This document shows, piece by piece, positions 17,452-27,000 of a stretch of 27,457 nucleotides of DNA. This DNA comes from a virus, in the IMG/VR virus record IMGVR_UViG_3300046028_002366, positions 1 to 27,457 of that record. One strand, given 5' to 3'. The notes below the pieces were generated by a model. It was not told the DNA's origin. It did no database searches and saw nothing but the letters and a program-made list of their open reading frames with translations. The position numbers and the translations under genes are program-made. Numbering within the stretch: position 1 is the stretch's first letter; the number at the start of each line of letters is the position of its first letter.

Positions 17452-18039
17452 TTAAATGCCATCTTGTTTCCGGTAACTTCCCCAGCTAAAATTCAACCCA
17501 CAACCGTTCTCCCTAATCCGGTCAAGCACCGCAGGGGATAAGGTCGAGGCTAGTTTCTCCCTGGTGTAGTTCGTGATAAGGATTGTTGGCCGGCCATGAG
17601 CATATCTAGCGTCGATGATCGAGGTTAATTTCCTGTCCTCAAACTCAGTTTCCCCTCGTTCCTGCATTTCGTCGATGACCAGCAACCCGGCCTCGGTGTG
17701 ACGTCTGACAATCTGCATTTCTGACTGGTCTGAGTCAGACCGGAATGAGTCTCTAATTTCTAGGAACAACCCCACTGCGGTGGTGTAGATCGCTGGACGT
17801 TCCCGGCTAGTCCCGGCCCAGCCAATCCCTCCAATTAAGAAGTGGGAGTCTGGAGGCGAGCATTTCTTGGCGATCTCCCATGCCATTCTAGTCTTTCCTG
17901 TCCCATGCGCTCCATACATAACCACAATGCCCCCAGAATCGACCGCAGCGAGTCCTTTGCGGTAATGTGACCACCAGTCATCTCCGGTGGCCTCAGGGGC
18001 GCTCTCGTAGCGTTTTGGAAATCCTTTTAATAGTATCAT
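17452..18039 (-). CDS. DnaC-like AAA+ helicase loader
   Basis: A 195-aa ATPase. Walker A is GAHGTGKT (residues 43-50), Walker B LLVIDEMQ (119-126), sensor 1 ILITNYT (N157) and the arginine finger region is VLDRIRENG (R174/R176). The order and the short length match DnaC/IstB-type loaders that place the replicative helicase on DNA. No helicase is visible in the window, so it probably captures the host DnaB or works with one encoded elsewhere in the phage. It is the last gene of the - strand operon and overlaps the previous one by 4 bases. Confidence 0.85.
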   Translation of the reverse strand: MILLKGFPKRYESAPEATGDDWWSHYRKGLAAVDSGGIVVMYGAHGTGKTRMAWEIAKKCSPPDSHFLIGGIGWAGTSRERPAIYTTAVGLFLEIRDSFRSDSDQSEMQIVRRHTEAGLLVIDEMQERGETEFEDRKLTSIIDARYAHGRPTILITNYTREKLASTLSPAVLDRIRENGCGLNFSWGSYRKQDGI

Positions 18040-18323
18040 TTGAAGTGTTTGTCTAAAATGTTTGAGCAGGTGTATCCACCCTTGTTATGGATTTTCGTGT
18101 AATCAACAACTTGTGTCGGTTCGATCTTCTCTGATTCTGCGGTCCTTACCAGTATTTCGAGCGCCTTTGAGGAAATAATTCCCTCGCGTTTTGCTAATCG
18201 CTGGATTCGTTGGTAGGTTTCGTAGGTAAGCCGGAATGTTGCGGTGACTCGTTGTTCCCATGGCTTGTGCCTAGGTCTTCCTTTGATGAGTTTGAATCCG
18301 TTATCTTTTGTGAAGTTTGCCAT
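18036..18323 (-). CDS. Putative ribbon-helix-helix DNA-binding protein
   Basis: A 95-aa basic protein. The middle, KPWEQRVTATFRLTYETYQR followed by a second helix (EGIISSKALEILVRTAE), reads as a beta strand and two helices like a ribbon-helix-helix or MetJ/Arc-type fold. The N-terminus is basic (GRPRHKP). It may regulate the operon or assist the loader next to it. It overlaps the loader start by 4 bases and its own 5' part is overlapped by the 18194-18403 ORF. Confidence 0.65.
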   Translation of the reverse strand: MANFTKDNGFKLIKGRPRHKPWEQRVTATFRLTYETYQRIQRLAKREGIISSKALEILVRTAESEKIEPTQVVDYTKIHNKGGYTCSNILDKHFK

Positions 18324-18403
18324 TTCCTGAATATATTGTTGTAGTTGTCTCCGTAGATTTTTGCATTAACGGGCCTTGGTGTATCTCCTTTTCCTGCGCT
18401 CAT
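18194..18403 (-). CDS. MSAGKGDTPRPV-type small phage protein, possibly 3'-extended
   Basis: A 69-aa ORF from the Met that gives MSAGKGDTPRPVNAKIYGDN and then YNNIFRK. This N-terminal signature belongs to a very widespread tiny phage protein of unknown function that normally ends soon after 'NYDxIFxK'. Here the frame does not stop but reads on for 130 bases inside the next gene, giving a Ser/Thr/Asn-rich tail that looks non-natural. The 3' end may have lost its stop when the neighbour was joined. The start lies 2 bases after the preceding stop. Confidence 0.65.
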   Translation of the reverse strand: MSAGKGDTPRPVNAKIYGDNYNNIFRKWQTSQKITDSNSSKEDLGTSHGNNESPQHSGLPTKPTNESSD

Positions 18404-18405
18404 TT

Positions 18406-18741
18406 TTATTCTTTCCATTTGTCGATTGTTCTGAGGAACGCTTCGCAGCGTTGGGCGGAAGTTGCCTCTGTTGCCTTTGAATATCCATACAGAGAGATCG
18501 CCCCGCTAACTACATTGCAGAGGCATGCGAAATAGCGAGGCATTAGGTTTTGTGGTATTGTTTTGACGGCATCATGAATCGCGTTGAGGTCATGGAGGTA
18601 ATCCGGCACTCCTCGGGTACCCCAAAATGATCCATCGCCTTTTTGATATGCTGCTGCTACACAGCACCCATTTGGGGTGAAATGCGGCTGCATGTATCCA
18701 CACGCCTCGGCAATCGCGATTTGTTGTTCTTCAGCGGTCAT
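18406..18741 (-). CDS. Conserved phage protein, paralogue A of tandem pair
   Basis: A 111-aa protein from the Met equivalent to its neighbour's (MTAEEQQIAIAEACG); a longer start at 18762 exists. A GGAAAGG purine run precedes it. It shares with the next gene the phrases EEQ(Q/R)IAI.EACG, PDYL.DLNAIH.A and SAQRCEAF followed by L.TI.KW, the pattern of a small phage family often seen next to replication genes. Function is unknown. It overlaps the upstream paralogue's stop by 11 bases. Confidence 0.75.
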   Translation of the reverse strand: MTAEEQQIAIAEACGYMQPHFTPNGCCVAAAYQKGDGSFWGTRGVPDYLHDLNAIHDAVKTIPQNLMPRYFACLCNVVSGAISLYGYSKATEATSAQRCEAFLRTIDKWKE

Positions 18742-19054
18742 TTTTGCCTTTCCATTTTCCAATTGTTTTTAGGAACGCTTCGCAGCGTTGCGAAGCGGTA
18801 AGACTGACCATGTTCCCATACTTTTCGTAAAGCTCAGAGCAATAGCATCCGTAGGCATGGTTGTCTTCTGCTTCTAGTTGGATCTCAGCCTCATGGATCG
18901 CGTTGAGATCGTTGAGGTAGTCTGGCAGACTATCGAAATCCCATCCGGCATTGCTGTCGGCGTGTTCAAAGCATCTGCGTCCGTTTAGCCACGCCTCTGT
19001 TTCCGTCCACCCACACGCCTCGGTAATCGCGATTCGTTGTTCTTCAGGACTCAT
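18731..19054 (-). CDS. Conserved phage protein, paralogue B of tandem pair
   Basis: A 107-aa protein from MSPEEQRIAITEACG (alternative Met at 19075). It shares the N-terminal, central (LPDYLNDLNAIHEAE) and C-terminal (ASQRCEAFLKTIGKWK) blocks with the downstream paralogue but differs in the linkers, so the pair arose by an old duplication or by acquisition of two versions. A 20-base stretch covering the QRCEAFL codons is identical in both (18434-18453 and 18771-18790). The role is unknown. Confidence 0.78.
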   Translation of the reverse strand: MSPEEQRIAITEACGWTETEAWLNGRRCFEHADSNAGWDFDSLPDYLNDLNAIHEAEIQLEAEDNHAYGCYCSELYEKYGNMVSLTASQRCEAFLKTIGKWKGKNDR

Positions 19055-19171
19055 GGTGTTGTGTGTTTTGTTCATGGTTTAATAAATCCAACTTTTGTTT
19101 GTTTGGTTGGCTGTTATATGCCTGACGGATAGGCTGTTTCATCATCTGGTTCGTGATCATTTCTTTTGCTT

Positions 19172-19984
19172 TCAGAGAGGAAGAGCGCACCCGCAGCCGC
19201 CCCATTCGTGCGCACCGTCGAACTCGTCGCCGCGCCCTTCGATTTCTTCGCGGAATTGCTCTAGGGTGATTCGTTCCCGTTTCCCGTTGCGGTCTTTGTA
19301 GAGCACATGCCCCATTTGCACGCCGTTTGCGGCCTGCCATGCGCGGGTTTCTTGCTCTTGCTGTTCGTGCCAGGCGTAGCGTTCCGGCATCCATCGGAGC
19401 AGGTTTGCGAAGGCGGCGCGTCCTGCCTTGATGCAGAAGCCGCCGCAGTTGTTGTGCGCGAAGCCCATGGCGTAGAGGCGCGGGAGGTGTAGTCCTTCAC
19501 GCGCAGCCCATTCGAGGCATTGCGCCTTGCTGATCCATGGCTTGTCGCACAGCGGCGCGATGTATTGCCACGGCTTGCAGAGTTCTTGGAGACGGTCGAT
19601 GCGGTGGGATTCATCCCACAGGATACCGACGACCATCTTCGTGGTTTCAGGGTTGCAGTTTTCATTCCGCCACTTGTCCAGAGGATCGCGCTTGAGCATC
19701 CGTGAGCAGATGTCCGCTTTACTGGTTCCGATCATCTTCTGGTCGCGGAAGAGTTCCCACGGTGTCCGGCCTTCCTTGAGGATTACGAGCGGCGCACCGA
19801 CGTTCTCAGCCCCTTCATGCACGAACCGATAGCAGTCTTCATCCTCCATGCCGGTGTCGGCGAAGAGCAGGGTCATGCGGTCGGTTCCGTGCGTTTCAGC
19901 TATGCGTTTTGCAGCAGCCCATGAGGTTATCCCGCCCGAGAGCAGGACAACGTAAGAGAAGAGATCACGAGAAGATGATGGCAT
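19172..19984 (-). CDS. PP-loop ATPase, PAPS-reductase-like phage protein
   Basis: A 270-aa protein with a PP-loop nucleotide-binding motif at the N-terminus (LLSGGITSWAAAKR, SGG at 16-18), followed by LLFADTGMEDEDCYRF and, near the middle, HNNCGGFCIKAGR with two Cys that could hold a metal or thiol. The family activates substrates by adenylation with ATP or transfers sulfur. Phage versions annotated as PAPS reductase-like lack a known substrate. GC content (about 62% at 19201-19260) is far above flanking genes, pointing to recent acquisition. It ends GCGCALPL. It follows a truncated relative after 28 bases. Confidence 0.85.
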   Translation of the reverse strand: MPSSSRDLFSYVVLLSGGITSWAAAKRIAETHGTDRMTLLFADTGMEDEDCYRFVHEGAENVGAPLVILKEGRTPWELFRDQKMIGTSKADICSRMLKRDPLDKWRNENCNPETTKMVVGILWDESHRIDRLQELCKPWQYIAPLCDKPWISKAQCLEWAAREGLHLPRLYAMGFAHNNCGGFCIKAGRAAFANLLRWMPERYAWHEQQEQETRAWQAANGVQMGHVLYKDRNGKRERITLEQFREEIEGRGDEFDGAHEWGGCGCALPL

Positions 19985-20008
19985 ATAACAAGAGGGTGAT
20001 GATCGACA

Positions 20009-20060
20009 GGGACTAGCCGTCGAGTTGGTTTGTTGATTCAGGTCCAGCGCGGCTAGTCCC
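20009..20060. repeat. Perfect 10-base inverted repeat at a gene truncation
   Basis: GGGACTAGCC (20009-20018) and GGCTAGTCCC (20051-20060) are exact reverse complements around 32 bases. The repeat encloses the odd C-terminal tail and stop codon of the upstream PP-loop gene. It may act as a terminator stem between two genes or mark a recombination scar. Confidence 0.7.
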
Positions 20061-20642
20061 CGCGTCGTAGCCGATGAGCTTCACGACTTTTCCACCTGCC
20101 GCCCACACGTCGAGCGCGGGTTGCCATGTCTTGAGGTATCGCTCTTGCGGGCGGACTTTGTATTTGTCGGGGCATGACCGGAAGCCGAAGACCAGCGACG
20201 GCAGCGTTCCCGCTTCGCGGACTTCGCTTTCCAGCGTCCGGCGCTCGTCTCGCACGGTGATGACGGGAGGCATTCCGTGATCTACCAGCCACGCGCTGAA
20301 CTCCTCCACGAATCGGATTGTTTCGGGCAGTTCGCCGCCCGTGTCCGCGAACGTGATGAGGTCGGGAACCACACCACGCCGCTGCATTTCGATGAGCATG
20401 GCCGCGCTATTTGTTCCACCTCCGAAGCTGACCACTACCGGCCAAGAAGAGGGAGAACAAGACGGTGATGCCAATCCCGAGGGCGGCGATGTTGGTTCTG
20501 TAATCATAGCTTTTTTTCGCCCTCGGGCTGGCATGAGAGCCAACCGATCATCAGCTTTCTCTTTGGCGTTCGGGCATATTGCGCACGGAATACAGGTTTC
20601 CGATAGCAGACACAGTTCGGGTCGTTGGCAGTTATTGGGCAT
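20013..20642 (-). CDS. Second PP-loop ATPase (PAPS-reductase-like), apparently C-terminally truncated
   Basis: A 209-aa frame from ATG 20642, which has the purine run AGGAAAG just upstream; ATG 20507 (164 aa) is also possible. A Cys-rich N-terminus (five Cys within residues 5-23) precedes the PP-loop PVVVSFGGGTNSAAMLIEM and ITFADTGGELPETIRFVEEF. Relatives continue after the 'IGYDAGE..R' phrase with a second half bearing a Cys motif; here the protein ends 15 residues after GYDAG, at the inverted repeat. It may be non-functional or act together with the next PP-loop protein. GC is high as in its neighbour. It overlaps thyX by 11 bases. Confidence 0.75.
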   Translation of the reverse strand: MPNNCQRPELCLLSETCIPCAICPNAKEKADDRLALMPARGRKKAMITEPTSPPSGLASPSCSPSSWPVVVSFGGGTNSAAMLIEMQRRGVVPDLITFADTGGELPETIRFVEEFSAWLVDHGMPPVITVRDERRTLESEVREAGTLPSLVFGFRSCPDKYKVRPQERYLKTWQPALDVWAAGGKVVKLIGYDAGTSRAGPESTNQLDG

Positions 20643-21342
20643 TGGCTTTCCTTTCACTCGGTGGCTCCACATCGGCGTTCAAAACGTATTTCATTTGTCC
20701 AGCATCCGTGATTGACGCGCACAGTGGAAAATGCTCCGCGAACTGAGCGAAGATGCTGTTGGCAAGATCCCTGTGTTCCTTCTGCGCGTGTGCGGATCTT
20801 CGTTGCCAAAAATAAGTGATCCAGCTACGGACGCTGCCTTTCATATAGGCGCGAGTTGGAGTGCATAGCGGCAGCACCATGCGGGCTGATTCTGGGGCTG
20901 CACCGCATGCTACTAACCATTCGTATTGTTCTGCGGCTTTGCCTGCTCCAAAAATAGCGTGTTCCGACAATAAACTGCTTGACTCACCTGACCCCTGTCT
21001 GTTCCCACCTTCATGTTTTAAACGGATCTTCAAATCGCTGAAATCAAAATCTTTGACTTCCGCGTAGCGTTGTGAGAACTCTTGGAATTTAAAAGAACTG
21101 TGCCGTAATATCTGAGCCATGATTGCTCTACTGGTGTGTATCTCGAATGTCACATCGACCATATCGAAAACAGACCAATGCCCGTTTTGCAAGCAGTAGC
21201 GCAAAAGTCCTTCTCCGGTATCGTGATTGTGCTGGTTGTGCGGCGAGCTTACGCGGGCCTGATAAACGATGAACTGTTCGGGGGTGAGATCAAGCAGATC
21301 GGCTTGAATGGGTTTAGTGATGCTGATGATTTCTGATTTCAT
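20632..21342 (-). CDS. thyX: Flavin-dependent thymidylate synthase ThyX
   Basis: A 236-aa enzyme that methylates dUMP to dTMP using methylenetetrahydrofolate and FAD/NADPH, supplying thymidine for phage DNA. The signature region at residues 80-93 reads RHSSFKFQEFSQRY; the usual motif is RHR followed by seven residues and Ser, so the third position is Ser82 instead of Arg. Other family features are present: the H55-W56 and E67-I68-H69 phrases, the LPLCTPTRAYMKGSVRSWI segment and FWQRRSAHAQKEHRDLA near the C-terminus that binds substrate. Length is normal. It lies within the replication operon beside the RuvC-like gene. Confidence 0.93.
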   Translation of the reverse strand: MKSEIISITKPIQADLLDLTPEQFIVYQARVSSPHNQHNHDTGEGLLRYCLQNGHWSVFDMVDVTFEIHTSRAIMAQILRHSSFKFQEFSQRYAEVKDFDFSDLKIRLKHEGGNRQGSGESSSLLSEHAIFGAGKAAEQYEWLVACGAAPESARMVLPLCTPTRAYMKGSVRSWITYFWQRRSAHAQKEHRDLANSIFAQFAEHFPLCASITDAGQMKYVLNADVEPPSERKANAQ

Positions 21343-21369
21343 GGTGTTGTGCAGTGGTTAGTTTATCTT

Positions 21370-21864
21370 TTATAGTTTCGTTTCTTCAATCAAAAAATCA
21401 ATTCGTGTGTGTTTCCGGCGTCCAAACTCTGCGATAAGCAACGCATCAGAGACGGCATGGGTGCATTTCATTGCTGGGAAAAGCTCTTGAGCCTTGGATT
21501 TTGAGACATTCTTATCTCCCTTTGTCATACATCCCAGTTCCTTCTGCCATACCTGAGGTCGCACACGCTCAAACGGTATACCTGCGGCTGTAAGCGCCAT
21601 CTCCAAGTGACCAAATCCATTACCAAAAGTGAAGGCGCTCTTCACGCCCATTTGTGGAGAACTGTGGACTTGCTCGATATACGCCTTGATGTGGGCGTTG
21701 TCGCAATACCTGCCTGCCTCGATTTGCGAGGCTAAGCGAATATTATCAACTAGCTCCCATAGATCCTGTAACGTATCAGGCATCTTCTCAACGCAGGCTT
21801 TGCCGTTAGCAATCCATGCTACAGCTCCATTAGCTCCAGGGTCAATTCCGATAATAGTTAGCAT
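21370..21864 (-). CDS. RuvC-like Holliday junction resolvase
   Basis: A 164-aa RNase H-fold nuclease. Acidic residues expected of the family are visible: D8 in IIGIDPGANGAVA, E64 in AYIEQVHSSPQ and the C-terminal HAVSDALLIAE with H135, D139 and E145. The segment MGVKSAFTFGNGFGHLEMAL matches the family's central helix. It would cut four-way junctions or branched phage DNA before packaging. It is encoded between a small unknown gene and thyX within the recombination genes. Confidence 0.88.
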   Translation of the reverse strand: MLTIIGIDPGANGAVAWIANGKACVEKMPDTLQDLWELVDNIRLASQIEAGRYCDNAHIKAYIEQVHSSPQMGVKSAFTFGNGFGHLEMALTAAGIPFERVRPQVWQKELGCMTKGDKNVSKSKAQELFPAMKCTHAVSDALLIAEFGRRKHTRIDFLIEETKL

Positions 21865-21868
21865 AATT

Positions 21869-22084
21869 TTATTCGGTGAGTTCGTTCCAGAGTTTTAGTT
21901 TCATTTTCTTCGCCAACCCAATCACTGCGTCCAACTCAGTATCATCTGAGTTGCTAAACCTAGTTTCAGATTTAAAAGCTACCCATTTGCCATCCTCTCT
22001 CTGCATGGCTTTGATATTCTTCACTGCCATCCATTTCAACCTGGGTGATAGTTCTTCCGGCAGGTCTGAAAACAATCCGTTCAT
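21869..22084 (-). CDS. Small conserved phage protein (SPRLKWM type)
   Basis: A 71-aa protein with SPRLKWMAVKNIKAM and a C-terminal helical half (TELDAVIGLAKKMKLKLWNE). I recall the SPRLKWM start from phage proteins of unknown function. It lies between two other small genes of the replication operon, overlapping the upstream stop by 4 bases and preceding the resolvase start by 4 bases. Confidence 0.7.
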   Translation of the reverse strand: MNGLFSDLPEELSPRLKWMAVKNIKAMQREDGKWVAFKSETRFSNSDDTELDAVIGLAKKMKLKLWNELTE

Positions 22085-22293
22085 CTAGGTTCTGCTAGTT
22101 TGAGTTCCGATTTGTGGCGAGCGACTTCATAACCTTTCCCGGTATCAACTACGACTGCATCACATCCGCGCATGTCACGCAAGACAGTTTCCATCCATCG
22201 CATCTCGTCCTCATTGTTTTGTCGGTAAGGAGTGGTGAGTGATAGGTATCCGCGATCTCGCGCATCCAGTGGTGTTAAAATTTCAAATTGCAT
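22081..22293 (-). CDS. Small conserved phage protein (NVLRDLRGCD type)
   Basis: A 70-aa protein with GYLSLTTPYRQNNEDEMRWM, then VLRDMRGCDAVVVDTGKGYEV. This 'RG..SLT.PY......M..VLRDLRGCD.A.V' pattern is a common phage protein, usually in early operons, with no assigned activity. Balanced composition and the ATGA overlap with the next gene support it. The 66 bases before it hold no gene. Confidence 0.75.
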   Translation of the reverse strand: MQFEILTPLDARDRGYLSLTTPYRQNNEDEMRWMETVLRDMRGCDAVVVDTGKGYEVARHKSELKLAEPR

Positions 22294-22359
22294 ATATATG
22301 AATTAGCCCTATCGCAAACCCCGGGCCAGAGTGGTTTAACTGTGCGACTCAGTATGCCG

Positions 22360-22602
22360 TTATGCTCTACTGCGGAAGTATCTGGTGTTGTATGAGTTAC
22401 CGGGCCTTGCTTCACGAAACTCAACTCCACTCAGTAGACTGTTCGCGTGGGTGGATTCCACTGCACTTCTGGATAACCATATGCCATCCTTTTGATAGGG
22501 AGAGACGACCAGATATTTCTGTGTCTCAGGATTCCAATCTACTATGGTCTTCTCATAGTATTGAGTCCCTACCTCAAGCGGGATATCGTCGAAGAGGCTC
22601 AT
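22360..22602 (-). CDS. Hypothetical protein, acidic N-terminus
   Basis: An 80-aa protein beginning MSLFDDIPLEVGTQYYEKTI and ending with a basic YFRSRA. Its start shares one base with the SSB-like stop (TAATG), so the two are coupled. The DDIP near its start resembles the SSB tail phrase, but no family is recognised. A regulator or partner of the SSB-like protein is possible. Confidence 0.65.
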   Translation of the reverse strand: MSLFDDIPLEVGTQYYEKTIVDWNPETQKYLVVSPYQKDGIWLSRSAVESTHANSLLSGVEFREARPGNSYNTRYFRSRA

Positions 22603-22844
22603 TAGAACGGAATATCATCTGCTGGTTCAGCCGCACCACCACCGGCTCCTGCGTATGGTTTTGGCTCATAGAATGAGATCCATCCACTCCAGTCTGGCGA
22701 TACTGGCATCCCATCGAGTTTGAGCGAAAGGTTGCCCTTATCGTTCTCAAAGACCGCGCCAACCGTGAGGTAGCGTTTCTTCTCGTTGCCTTGCTTATCT
22801 TTATACGCGCCAACAGTGGCGACTGCGTCATATTTCTTTTTCAT
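22602..22844 (-). CDS. Small SSB-like protein with DDIPF tail
   Basis: An 80-aa protein. The N-terminal 60 residues read as a short OB-like beta fold (YDAVATVGAYKDKQGNEKKR, YLTVGAVFENDKGN). A Gly/Ala linker then leads to the acidic end PADDIPF, the tail that in single-stranded DNA-binding proteins docks onto partner enzymes. It is shorter than classical SSB (about 110 or more before the tail), so the fold may be minimal. It sits between the exonuclease gene (4-base overlap) and another small gene, as expected for a recombination module. Confidence 0.75.
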   Translation of the reverse strand: MKKKYDAVATVGAYKDKQGNEKKRYLTVGAVFENDKGNLSLKLDGMPVSPDWSGWISFYEPKPYAGAGGGAAEPADDIPF

Positions 22845-23644
22845 AGGTATGCTGGTTTTTCAATGGTGACAATTCCCTCATGCTGTTTCGGCCATGAATC
22901 GGTCGCTGCACATGATTGCCATTGAGCGAGTGCATTCATGTATCCAATTCGCCCAAGGTCAATAAAATTCTCCGACAACTCAATCCAAGCCGTTTCGTAT
23001 GGCTCTTTTGTCTCGATGAAACAGAAAACAAATCGCTTCCGGCTATCTCCAGAAGCTGCGTTCCAGAGGTCGATGTAAAGCGCGGCTTGCCAGTGGTAGC
23101 CCCATTTGACGATGGTTTGCACCAGGTCACGCTGAGAACCGATATTCGCGGTAGTTTTGAGGTCTACCAACAGATCCAAATTGTTGGGGACGATATCAAT
23201 CATACCCTTGATTTGCGTCGATCCGATCTCGCCAAATACTGCCACCTCGGAGGCGAAATCCCCGGCGAACCTTTGAGAGTATTCCTCGGAGAATACTTGC
23301 TCGCACCCAGAAGCAATTCGGATGTCCTCGTCGCTGACGATCATTTTCCCCATCTCTCTCTGATCATCTCGCCACTCCTGTGCTGCCTTGGTGCGGAAAT
23401 CTGCGTAGGGAGAAACCACAGCAAACTCATCAACAGGAGTATTCGGCTCAAGGATAGCGGCATGGATGAGCGTCCCTAACCCCATGGCCTTTGTCGTCTC
23501 CTTGCCGGGTGAGTGCCGCCATTTATATGGCGACTGGTGGAAATCCCATAACAAGGACTTGGACACAGGTCCATCCAGTTTATTCGGCGTTGCTGTGCGT
23601 AAATAATACGCTTTGCCTAAGTTGTATTCGATATGTGCTTTCAT
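22841..23644 (-). CDS. RecE/RecB-like PD-(D/E)XK exonuclease
   Basis: A 267-aa protein of the PDDEXK group used with phage annealing proteins. H61 (GTLIHAAILEPN) is the typical upstream His. D150 lies in KGMIDIV, and D161-L-K163 in LLVDLKTT forms the D-x-K core. The motif QAALY (186-190) is the RecB-type Q-x-x-x-Y. The N-terminal SLLWDFHQSPYKWRH segment is the usual RecE-family lead. It would chew one strand from DNA ends to give single strands for the ERF protein encoded two genes upstream. Overlaps are ATGA on both sides. Confidence 0.87.
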   Translation of the reverse strand: MKAHIEYNLGKAYYLRTATPNKLDGPVSKSLLWDFHQSPYKWRHSPGKETTKAMGLGTLIHAAILEPNTPVDEFAVVSPYADFRTKAAQEWRDDQREMGKMIVSDEDIRIASGCEQVFSEEYSQRFAGDFASEVAVFGEIGSTQIKGMIDIVPNNLDLLVDLKTTANIGSQRDLVQTIVKWGYHWQAALYIDLWNAASGDSRKRFVFCFIETKEPYETAWIELSENFIDLGRIGYMNALAQWQSCAATDSWPKQHEGIVTIEKPAYL

Positions 23645-23781
23645 TTAATTAGTTGTTTGATTCTCTGAAAGAATGTGGGTTTCTTGGGTTTATTGAGTGC
23701 ATTAAGCAAGGCGATAGTGGCGACTGGATCGCGTCCAATGCTGCGTGTTGGTGTCTTGAACGGTGTGTGTGTAACTCTCAT
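23641..23781 (-). CDS. 46-aa basic protein between ERF and exonuclease
   Basis: An ORF of 46 codons (MRVTHTPFKTPTRSIGRDPV, then ATIALLNALNKPKKPTFFQR and IKQLIK) fills the gap between erf and the exonuclease. It overlaps both neighbours by 4 bases (ATGA at each end). The perfect coupling at both ends is strong evidence that it is translated. It is basic with a short hydrophobic helix. No family was recognised; a bridging or regulatory role in recombination is a guess. Confidence 0.65.
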   Translation of the reverse strand: MRVTHTPFKTPTRSIGRDPVATIALLNALNKPKKPTFFQRIKQLIK

Positions 23782-24353
23782 GCTGTTTTACGTTTAGCGA
23801 CAAATGCGCGTTCGATGTATGGAATTTTATCGGTAGTGATGTCTGAGATTTGCGACACGCCGTAGTGTTTTAGAAATGCTCCTTCATCGATGGTGAGCGC
23901 CTCCAGATCGCTCTTGATTCCAGCCACTTGTTCCGCGGTGATTTTTGAGTATACAACCTTCTGCGTAGTTGTCGCAGACTGTCCATCATCATCCTCCTGA
24001 GCGATCCCGGTGAACGCTGCAAGGGCATAGCGTCGAAGGTAGGTGGTTGCAGCTCCAACGCCTTGCCCGTCATGTTTGGCAGGGACGCAGGAGATTTCTC
24101 CGCTGACGTATCCTCCGCTGGAATGGCAGATGGTAGTTGTGACGCAGACCCGCACACCATCAAACGATGGCGATTGGATGATGCTAAGGCCGTTCGCTGC
24201 CATGACTGGGCGCACTGTATTAAGCACCTCGGCGAGGTCAGCGTATCGACTCTTGAAGTGGGGGTTAACGCTCCCCTTTGTGGCGTTCTCGACATCCCCC
24301 TGCATTTTGGCGAGGGACGCGAATAATTCTGGTGTGCTATGTTCTAGGTTCAT
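23778..24353 (-). CDS. erf: ERF-family single-strand annealing protein
   Basis: A 191-aa member of the ERF superfamily. The diagnostic stretch NPHFKSRYADLAEVLNTVRP plus VMAANGLSIIQ lies at residues about 30-60, and GVGAATTYLRRYALAAFTGI with the acidic QEDDDG at about 100-125. These proteins anneal complementary single strands during phage recombination and genome circularisation. A C-terminal helical part (YSKITAEQVAGIKSDLEALT) resembles a small helix-bundle tail common in these proteins. It is followed by the 46-aa ORF and the partner exonuclease and preceded by the DnaA-like gene after 4 bases. Confidence 0.92.
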   Translation of the reverse strand: MNLEHSTPELFASLAKMQGDVENATKGSVNPHFKSRYADLAEVLNTVRPVMAANGLSIIQSPSFDGVRVCVTTTICHSSGGYVSGEISCVPAKHDGQGVGAATTYLRRYALAAFTGIAQEDDDGQSATTTQKVVYSKITAEQVAGIKSDLEALTIDEGAFLKHYGVSQISDITTDKIPYIERAFVAKRKTA

Positions 24354-24357
24354 TTGT

Positions 24358-24741
24358 TTAGTCGGTGAGAGAGATAGTTAAAAATTTCTTCGTAGTGTCA
24401 ATTATTCGTTCCGGCTCTGGAGGCAACTCTGGTTCTGGCTCGTCAAGAATCTCCGCGCCATCCTGTGACCGGCGGCAGATCCGGTCGATGAGTAGTGCAA
24501 ATGATCGGTCTAATTCCGCCATGTTAAACACTCGATGCCTGGCCCAAATGACTGTGGAGTGGCAGCGACGATTGCAACGATTAACGGTATCCTGAAGCGA
24601 GTGGTCGTCTGACCAGCAAGCCATAATAACGTGTCTGGCAAGCGAGGCTTCCTTGGTTCGTTTTGGCCCAAGTATCTCGTTAGGAGGCACATCGAATGCG
24701 TCTGATGTCTCCCTGACCAATGTCTCAAAATTGGTGATCAT
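24358..24741 (-). CDS. Standalone DnaA domain IV-like DNA-binding protein
   Basis: A 127-aa protein from ATG 24741, chosen because that Met overlaps the upstream stop (ATGA) and starts the recognisable domain; longer starts give nonsense sequence. Residues about 5-75 match DnaA domain IV: FDVPPNEILGPKRTKEASLA, RHVIMACWSDDHSLQD and the helix-turn-helix region ending CHSTVIWARHRV, where HSTV is the DnaA signature. The rest is acidic and proline-rich. The AAA+ domain is absent. It may bind DnaA-box-like sites in the phage origin or compete with host DnaA (inference). Together with the DnaC-like loader it forms a minimal initiation kit. Confidence 0.82.
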   Translation of the reverse strand: MITNFETLVRETSDAFDVPPNEILGPKRTKEASLARHVIMACWSDDHSLQDTVNRCNRRCHSTVIWARHRVFNMAELDRSFALLIDRICRRSQDGAEILDEPEPELPPEPERIIDTTKKFLTISLTD

Positions 24742-24983
24742 TGGCTGAGACTGCGGCGTTGCTCCCGGCGGAATTGACGAAGGATGCTTGCGGAAAACTC
24801 GCGGGACACAGATCCGTATGCAGATCCGTAAAACAGTGTTCCTCCATTGTCGACTGGGACTCCCTGAGCGATCCTCCATGTTCGTCGTCCAATGCATAGC
24901 GCAGTGTTCCCTCGAATGTATTGCCATGAACTGTCGGTTTTAAAGATTGTCGTTTTCATTTTCGTTTTTGATAGATGTTTCAT
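24738..24983 (-). CDS. Hypothetical small protein
   Basis: An 81-aa protein if started at 24983 (ATGA overlap with the membrane protein); ATG 24959 gives 73 aa. It contains TDSSWQYIRGNTALCIGRRT and a Gly/Ser-rich middle followed by an Arg-rich helix (SASILRQFRREQRRSLS). The family was not recognised. It is coupled to the DnaA-like gene by a 4-base overlap. Confidence 0.6.
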   Translation of the reverse strand: MKHLSKTKMKTTIFKTDSSWQYIRGNTALCIGRRTWRIAQGVPVDNGGTLFYGSAYGSVSREFSASILRQFRREQRRSLSQ

Positions 24984-26223: not shown

Positions 26224-27000
26224 TTATTTTGGTTTTAGTGTTTCCCATGCGAGAGCTGCCACCTGCGGAATCTGTCCGTTCCCAACGGCTGTAAGTCTGT
26301 CCACCCGGTAGGTCACCCCATCACAGTCTCCGAAACGGTCGGATTGATTTTGCCACTCGTTCCAAATTTCACCGCCACCCATGAGACGAAGCTGATGTTT
26401 CGCGCCATTCTTTTTGCGTGGTAGGCTGGATTTTTCGAGTAGCACTTTCGATCCGATGTCATTGGCGTTGGAACCGTATATCCACAAACGCTCCCTTGCG
26501 TGAGGTAGCCCGGCCTCTCTCCCTCCAATAACACCCCATCGAGCATCATACCCCATTTCGGCAAGATCAGCGAGGACTCGGGCAAGTCCTCTTCCCACAA
26601 GCAACGGTGAGTTTTCCACAAAGACGTTTCGGGGCTGTATTTCACCGATGATTCTAGCCATTTCTCCCCACAATCCAGACCGATCCCCGCTAAGTCCCGC
26701 TCCTTTTCCTGCCGCGCTGATGTCCTGGCATGGGAATCCTCCGCACACGACACCAACAAGCCCTCTCCATGGTTTGCCGTCGAAAGTAGTAACGTCGTCC
26801 CAGATTGGGAACCGAGGCAGGATTCCATCTCGCTGGCGTTGCAATAAGACCTTCCGACAGTAAGGTTCAATCTCAACAGCACAGACTGTGGTATGTCCGC
26901 AAAGGATGCCGCCGAGGACACCCCCTCCAGCCCCGGCAAAGAGGTGGAGTTCTCGCAGTTGTCGTCCAGGTAGGTGTAACTCATTTGGTTGTCGTTTCAT
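26224..27000 (-). CDS. DNA (cytosine-5) methyltransferase
   Basis: A 258-aa C5 methyltransferase. Motif I is LHLFAGAGGGVLGG (about 18-31), motif IV GGFPCQDIS with nucleophile C91, motif VI FVENSP (E129-N130), motif VIII HARERLWI (R169, R171) and motif X TAVGNGQIPQVAA (238-249). The target-recognition region between VIII and X is very short (about 65 residues), so the recognised site may be short. No restriction partner is visible, so it probably protects phage DNA from host nucleases. It is the first gene of the - strand operon. A second long frame lies inside it. Confidence 0.93.
   Translation of the reverse strand: MKRQPNELHLPGRQLRELHLFAGAGGGVLGGILCGHTTVCAVEIEPYCRKVLLQRQRDGILPRFPIWDDVTTFDGKPWRGLVGVVCGGFPCQDISAAGKGAGLSGDRSGLWGEMARIIGEIQPRNVFVENSPLLVGRGLARVLADLAEMGYDARWGVIGGREAGLPHARERLWIYGSNANDIGSKVLLEKSSLPRKKNGAKHQLRLMGGGEIWNEWQNQSDRFGDCDGVTYRVDRLTAVGNGQIPQVAALAWETLKPK
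26313..26984 (-). CDS. Overlapping ORF embedded in the methyltransferase gene
   Basis: A 223-aa frame, same strand, shifted by one base, with its ATG 16 bases inside the methyltransferase gene. It contains CENSTSLPGLEGVSSA (10-25), SHARTSARQEKERD (84-97), LDCGEKWLESSVKYSPETSL then WKTHRCLW (103-130), LPKWGMMLDGV (141-151), VPTPMTSDRK (171-180) and GKINPTVSETVMG at the end. I recognise this order from annotated phage proteins of the 'SSWKT..CL......LPRWGMMRDGV...WPTPT...G.LNP.WVEWLMG' type, which can also occur outside such an overlap. The function is unknown. Part of the likeness could be passive, because the methyltransferase motifs constrain the same DNA. Confidence 0.5.
   Translation of the reverse strand: MSYTYLDDNCENSTSLPGLEGVSSAASFADIPQSVLLRLNLTVGRSYCNASEMESCLGSQSGTTLLLSTANHGEGLLVSCAEDSHARTSARQEKERDLAGIGLDCGEKWLESSVKYSPETSLWKTHRCLWEEDLPESSLILPKWGMMLDGVLLEGERPGYLTQGSVCGYTVPTPMTSDRKCYSKNPAYHAKRMARNISFVSWVAVKFGTSGKINPTVSETVMG

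Follow-up and report, generated by a model that had tools for sequence, protein, structure and literature searches.

Does the 223-codon open reading frame that lies inside a viral gene for a C5-cytosine DNA methyltransferase encode a protein with a task of its own, does it encode a part of the enzyme, or does it only stay open because the motifs of the methyltransferase fix the underlying DNA? The question arose from a first-pass annotation of the window, i.e., the whole stretch of 27,457 nucleotides of viral DNA that was analyzed here, and the coordinates, the strand and the lengths given there for the frame inside the methyltransferase gene were exact (Table 1). In the following, the protein encoded by the longer frame is called alpha and the protein encoded by the embedded frame is called beta.

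Table 1. Features of the methyltransferase locus (positions are those of the whole window).
Feature	Position	Strand	Basis
Alpha chain, C5-cytosine DNA methyltransferase, 258 aa	26224-27000	minus	Pfam, PHROGs, AlphaFold2 and Foldseek
Beta chain, 223 aa, read in the +1 frame of alpha	26313-26984	minus	PHROG 1008, family-profile score
Start region with the ATG codons of alpha (27000) and beta (26984)	26982-27000	minus	comparison of homologue starts
Insertion of 30 nt (10 codons) peculiar to the window, in phase for both frames, STSLPGLEGV in beta	26919-26948	minus	alignment
Alpha residues 184-230, motif VIII-X interval, most likely a weakly folded linker in alpha and the recognition region plus motif IX in beta	26311-26451	minus	AlphaFold2, substitution rates
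Segment INPTVSETVMG of beta, initial half of the motif IX-like block, which is cut by the TGA	26316-26348	minus	family block LNPxWVEWLMGFPxGWT
TGA (26313-26315), then the conserved tail of beta (25 codons) up to a TAA (26235-26237)	26235-26315	minus	homologous C-termini

The two frames and their relatives

Alpha matches PHROG 363 (E=6e-61) and the Pfam family PF00145 (E=3e-29), with only the profile positions 4-190 of 324 being covered in the latter. The residues P90 C91, E129 N130, R169, R171 and G240 N241 are invariant in 56 homologues, and the catalytic motifs IV (PCQ), VI (ENx), VIII (RxR) and X (GN) are present in a large-domain fold. Judged from its sequence, alpha is a C5-cytosine DNA methyltransferase with motifs I-VIII and X and without motif IX. 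For beta, comparison with PHROGs resulted in PHROG 1008 ("DNA methyltransferase") as the sole match (E=3.8e-6), and no meaningful or significant match was obtained in Pfam and NCBIfam.

All beta homologues checked overlap a methyltransferase gene in the same frame relation, among them the window, L081-L192, and 80 of 80 IMG/VR loci and 80 of 80 bacterial-genome loci fetched with a profile of the alternative protein. Searches with beta queries and profiles yielded no standalone beta in phages, plasmids, IMG/VR or bacterial genomes, every locus examined overlapping a methyltransferase. The earlier suggestion that the alternative frame gave rise to a standalone family was thereby not borne out, as no homologue lies outside a methyltransferase gene in the loci checked; the lack of standalone homologues had been expected to count against the embedded frame, yet this frame is real. 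The "recurring phage protein type" to which beta had been assigned is related via PHROG 1008, but the type is the same overlapping ORF. In Paenibacillus phage Leyra, gp62 is a beta annotated as a second 'DNA-cytosine methyltransferase', two genes with this name being listed for Leyra-type Paenibacillus phages (PMC6070908), and in Pseudomonas phage phPA-G beta is the sole annotated frame.

In most homologues the start codons of alpha and beta are only 4 nt apart (NTGAATGAG), and therefore a single ribosome-landing region could serve both chains; in the window the beta start lies 16 nt downstream of the alpha start. All 93 paired starts retain the beta ATG, and the Asn2 codon of alpha creating this ATG (NTG-AAT-GAG) is AAT in every one of them compared to 41% AAT elsewhere in the genes (P=6e-37). 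Furthermore, a purine-rich, Shine-Dalgarno-like stretch is located upstream of 69 of the 93 paired starts.

Some further observations were made in the relatives and in the window. In Mycobacterium phage Ochi17 (L274, 1305-2064) the methyltransferase is frameshifted into gp73 and gp74 and the beta frame is disrupted too, and the same two-piece pattern is seen in several other mycobacteriophages among the search matches. In L156 (2501-4150) the beta ORF apparently runs on for ~550 codons, and it may include an additional, fused domain. On the minus strand of the window, the region 17452-24927 forms a replication/recombination block encoding an IstB/DnaC-like ATPase, ThyX, a DUF3799 PD-(D/E)XK protein, an ERF annealing protein and a DnaA C-terminal domain, and the adjacent minus-strand genes at 19172-19984 and 20013-20672 each encode a PAPS-reductase-like domain (PF01507) near the Pfam cut-off.

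Selection on the two frames

Among 70 homologues that were fetched by the methyltransferase alone, and which are thereby unbiased with respect to beta, the +1 frame is open over essentially the whole gene in 68, while ~2-8 stops are expected from synonymous-codon shuffles. In a non-redundant set of 156 homologous methyltransferases, part of which was fetched by beta, beta is at least 90% open in 92% compared to 2 of 201 (1%) neighbouring ORFs, both of these being GC-rich. In 28 bacterial genomes none of the 22 canonical C5-methyltransferases, which generally have motif IX in their own frame, contains such an ORF, the longest +1 run spanning 9-39% of the gene; in the same genomes all eight genes with a PF00145 match confined to the N-terminal half of the profile contain a +1 ORF (97-99%). 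When only the window is considered, the probability of a +1 run of such length under synonymous-codon shuffling is p=0.0046. Stops in the second frame of close homologues, which had been named as an observation that would speak against a second protein, do occur singly in a few of them, but most homologues are open.

Scored against a profile of the other betas, the window beta reached 262 bits, whereas its synonymous shuffles reached 154+/-13 bits (z=8.5). Ten genes were tested by synonymous shuffling, i.e., the window and nine others, some of which are only ~33-42% identical in alpha to the reference L008, and z-scores of 5.8-12.5 were obtained. Owing to the conservation of synonymous sites, the other frames outscore their shuffles as well; the excess is largest in the +1 frame, most clearly so in the distant genes.

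Moreover, nucleotide changes between homologues were divided into those altering both proteins (NN), alpha only (NS) or beta only (SN). Pairwise rates were determined by simple counting; not every pair within a clade is independent of the others, and the alignment of the recognition region is less reliable due to indels. In the closest homologue pairs the changes altering both proteins are the rarest (NN 0.030; NS 0.104; SN 0.136), and the NN/NS ratio for the alternative frame is 0.29 (0.12-0.51) in the methyltransferases compared to 1.37 (0.89-2.36) in control genes. For pairs at 88-98% identity the ratio is 0.61 (0.46-0.75) compared to 0.78 (0.55-1.24) in controls and the intervals overlap, and therefore it is decisive only for the closest pairs. 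In both close bins the SN/NS ratio sets the methyltransferases (~1.3-1.5) apart from the controls (~9-12). The two frames are real, and each is kept by purifying selection in the homologues. Of the checks proposed in the first-pass annotation, the one for synonymous-site constraint thereby revealed an excess at methyltransferase synonymous sites, and the one for selection in each frame revealed purifying selection on both frames in the homologues, as judged from the pairwise substitution counts.

Motif IX and the recognition region

Towards its C-terminus beta contains a block, LNPxWVEWLMGFPxGWT, with a layout as in motif IX of C5-methyltransferases, for which RLTPRECARLMGFPDTF in L277 is a canonical example. 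With a motif-IX matrix derived from canonical enzymes this block was the top-ranking site in 148 of 212 betas, its scores exceeding the shuffled level, and the C-terminal halves of alpha contained nothing above that level. The same matrix missed the site in the truncated beta of the window, and a profile-profile comparison of beta with canonical methyltransferases gave no motif IX signal, motif IX being short. In some loci (L234, L307, L308, L310 and L311) the same block is found in alpha's own chain directly before motif X. In others (L086, L089, L095, L096, L255, L272, L273 and L275) beta holds the motif IX block followed by motif X, and in those that were inspected (L255, L272, L273 and L275) the alpha frame has stops after motif VIII. 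Single-chain methyltransferases of PHROG 116 align with alpha over positions 207-378 and with the betas of L273 and L275 over ~409-491. Based on the motif IX block, the switched motif X and the alignment to PHROG 116, beta can be regarded as the C-terminal part that is missing from alpha. According to these sequence comparisons, motif IX is carried by beta in the homologues, and the beta of the window stops inside the motif IX block.

The 223-aa protein of the window had been taken as full-length with INPTVSETVMG as its terminus; this segment is present, but it is the first half of the motif IX-like block and not where the proteins of the family end, and the window beta ends early at a TGA within its C-terminal block. 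This TGA occupies a codon that encodes a conserved Trp in the homologues, and the alpha codon at this site encodes Thr (ACC) in the window and mostly Ala in the homologues. Reading past the TGA, the sequence (VMG, stop, PTGWTDLQPLGTDRFRRWQLSHGKH, stop) agrees with the homologous beta C-termini. Single stops in beta with conserved sequence beyond each stop are also present in L010, L037 and L184. A search for near relatives of the window's TGA site found none, and allowing TGA to encode Trp raises the number of long open segments from 18 to 35, which by itself is uninformative on a reassigned TGA. The TGA may represent recent damage, read-through or a sequence error, and due to its location inside motif IX the window copy may be impaired. 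Moreover, the motif STSLPGLEGV encoded by the window's 10-codon insertion is absent from 252 homologous beta proteins. The N-terminal phrase CENSTSLPGLEG, regarded earlier as a family feature, occurs in 0 of these 252 betas, and much of it is this insertion.

The interval between motifs VIII and X behaves differently in the two frames. In the alpha frame of the homologues the NN/SN ratio is 1.09, 1.00 and 1.00 in three identity bins, i.e., there is no purifying selection, whereas the beta frame is constrained with NN/NS values of 0.59 and 0.63 in the two closer bins; at 72-80% identity (0.89; 0.76-1.04) and in a second clade (0.93; 0.69-1.16) the beta value is not significant. In loci with motif IX in alpha's frame, the NN/NS ratio of beta is 0.24 (0.22-0.27) up to motif IX and 1.08 after it, as calculated from 37 non-independent pairs. 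In L308-L316 motifs IX and X are in alpha's frame, and the recognition region is open and strongly constrained in the +1 frame; these loci are a natural intermediate layout.

AlphaFold2 predicts the core of the window alpha with pLDDT values of ~94-97 and residues 184-213 with values below 50, and Foldseek aligns the alpha model to M.HhaI over only ~172 columns corresponding to the large domain (E=7e-15). For beta alone only a poor model was obtained (pLDDT 58, pTM 0.23), and a fold search with this low-confidence model gave no match. The neutral alpha interval, the constrained beta and the disorder of residues 184-213 suggest that the interval is a linker in alpha and that beta supplies the recognition. 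Based on substitution rates and structure prediction, the target-recognition domain most likely resides in beta. Alpha was also considered as a complete single-chain C5-methyltransferase, and this was rejected as the PF00145 match ends at position 190 of 324, motif IX gives no signal and the interval is disordered. The recognition regions of several betas (e.g., L032, L095 and L157) contain WPTPxAxD modules in variable number between a WGMMxxG block and motif IX, and these repeats are perhaps exchangeable recognition units.

A probable two-chain enzyme, its alternatives and known systems

The small chain of the methyltransferase M.EcoHK31I is coded in an alternative frame inside the gene for its large chain. 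Taking sequence comparison, modelling and analogy together, the locus in the window very probably encodes one C5-cytosine DNA methyltransferase in this manner, i.e., as two polypeptides from overlapping frames on the same strand. Alpha would provide the catalytic large domain binding SAM and the cytosine, with motifs I-VIII and with motif X at its C-terminus, and beta would provide the parts missing from alpha, i.e., motif IX and, most likely, also the small domain for target recognition. Both chains would be translated, in the homologues with starts 4 nt apart from one shared landing site, and would assemble to a heterodimer recognizing and methylating DNA, presumably for the protection of the phage DNA from host restriction. 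The earlier suggestion that the second product may work with the methyltransferase is most likely correct.

Passive conservation, which had been put forward as the alternative to two used frames, would mean that only the methyltransferase is translated and that the second frame is open because methyltransferase motifs fix the DNA. It is in line with the fact that about half of the beta profile score remains when synonymous codons are shuffled (154 of 262 bits for the window) and that excess synonymous-site conservation is also found in other unused frames. However, the stops expected from codon choice are missing in the homologues, canonical C5-methyltransferases of the same genomes are without such an ORF, the substitution pattern is unlike that of control genes, the beta ATG is kept in 93 of 93 starts and, within the VIII-X interval, it is the beta frame and not the alpha frame that is constrained. 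As both frames are under selection in the homologues, passive conservation is rejected on the basis of the missing stops, the shuffle z-scores and the substitution pattern compared to controls, and we regard it as exceedingly unlikely.

Two further explanations accept both frames as coding. Beta might be an independent overprinted protein acting outside the enzyme, e.g., in anti-restriction or in methyltransferase regulation, and the missing significant Pfam match, the N-terminal part that is like nothing known and the missing confident fold would agree with this. However, beta was never found without a methyltransferase in the loci checked, it contains motif IX and in some loci also motif X with alpha then lacking motif X, its C-terminal half aligns to the C-terminal half of the single-chain PHROG 116 methyltransferases, and alpha is without a folded recognition domain, making an independent task highly improbable. 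Alternatively, programmed ribosomal frameshifting might join motifs I-VIII of alpha to the recognition region of beta, and lead back to motif X, resulting in a single polypeptide. The domain order is compatible with a single chain, and in L308-L316 motifs IX-X and the recognition region are located in different frames; against this, beta's own ATG is conserved over the start pair in 93 of 93 cases and the conserved N-terminal part of beta over the catalytic region would be absent from any frameshift product, and we therefore consider frameshifting as very unlikely.

Within the preferred reading of a two-chain methyltransferase, the recognition region and motif IX of beta are best read, from the sequence alignments, as the methyltransferase's own C-terminal half shifted into the other frame. 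This arrangement might have arisen in a single-chain enzyme through two frameshifts that compensated each other and enclosed the recognition region and motif IX, and beta might next have been extended upstream over the catalytic motifs, so that its N-terminal part would be genuine overprinting. Clades with a short beta (Leyra, L308-L316) and the switched motif IX or X are consistent with an origin by compensating frameshifts. The overprinting proposed earlier thus fits the N-terminal part of beta over the catalytic motifs, while the remainder would be the displaced C-terminal half of the methyltransferase. It seems fairly probable that these genes represent a class of C5-methyltransferases which is old and widespread in phages and prophages and in which double coding extends over most of the gene, with specificity in one frame and catalysis in the other, in which recognition evolves in beta over an unconstrained linker of alpha and motifs IX and X switch frame between lineages.

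Long same-strand double-coding genes are considered as rare in prokaryotes and phages, and here two frames, each of ~230-310 codons in the window's clade, are selected across phages and prophages of many bacterial groups. The literature searched contained no paper on overlapping frames in phage cytosine methyltransferases, and the arrangement is described there only as an exceptional restriction-modification enzyme. One such two-chain enzyme is already known from laboratory work, and the layout turns out to be common in phages and prophages. If true, it would account for two unrelated-looking 'DNA methyltransferase' families in phage databases: the match of alpha is to PHROG 363 and that of beta is to PHROG 1008, and these separate families are nevertheless the two frames of one gene region in every locus examined. 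Many annotations would be corrected, since either frame may be called alone, and many phage methyltransferases regarded as "complete" would possess a recognition half only if the second frame is expressed as well. Moreover, these genes would constitute a natural system for the evolution of specificity under double coding.

In the single-chain enzymes M.HhaI and M.HaeIII all motifs are in one chain without an overlapping ORF, as judged from canonical relatives; alpha folds like their large domain, and the beta block LNPxWVEWLMGFPxGW is comparable with the canonical motif IX. In the split C5-methyltransferase M.AquI (CYCGRG) motifs I-VIII are in one chain, and the distal recognition region and motifs IX-X are in the other (PMC3404938). 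A similar division is found in Winget gp6/gp5, in Jumbo gp35/36 and in L255, but unlike in M.AquI the alpha of the window's group retains motif X and runs full length under beta. M.EcoHK31I (YGGCCR), reportedly studied by Lee, Kam and Shaw in 1995, consists, according to the same publication, of a large polypeptide with motifs I-VIII and X and a smaller polypeptide which alone has motif IX, and the predicted recognition domain is placed there in the large subunit (PMC3404938). As in M.EcoHK31I, the large chain of the window type has motifs I-VIII and X and is without motif IX, and the small chain is in another frame of the same gene. Here the arrangement occurs in a phage, and hundreds of related loci share it. 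Unlike in M.EcoHK31I as published, evolutionary and model evidence assigns the recognition region here to the small chain, and in some relatives motif X is found in beta or motif IX in alpha.
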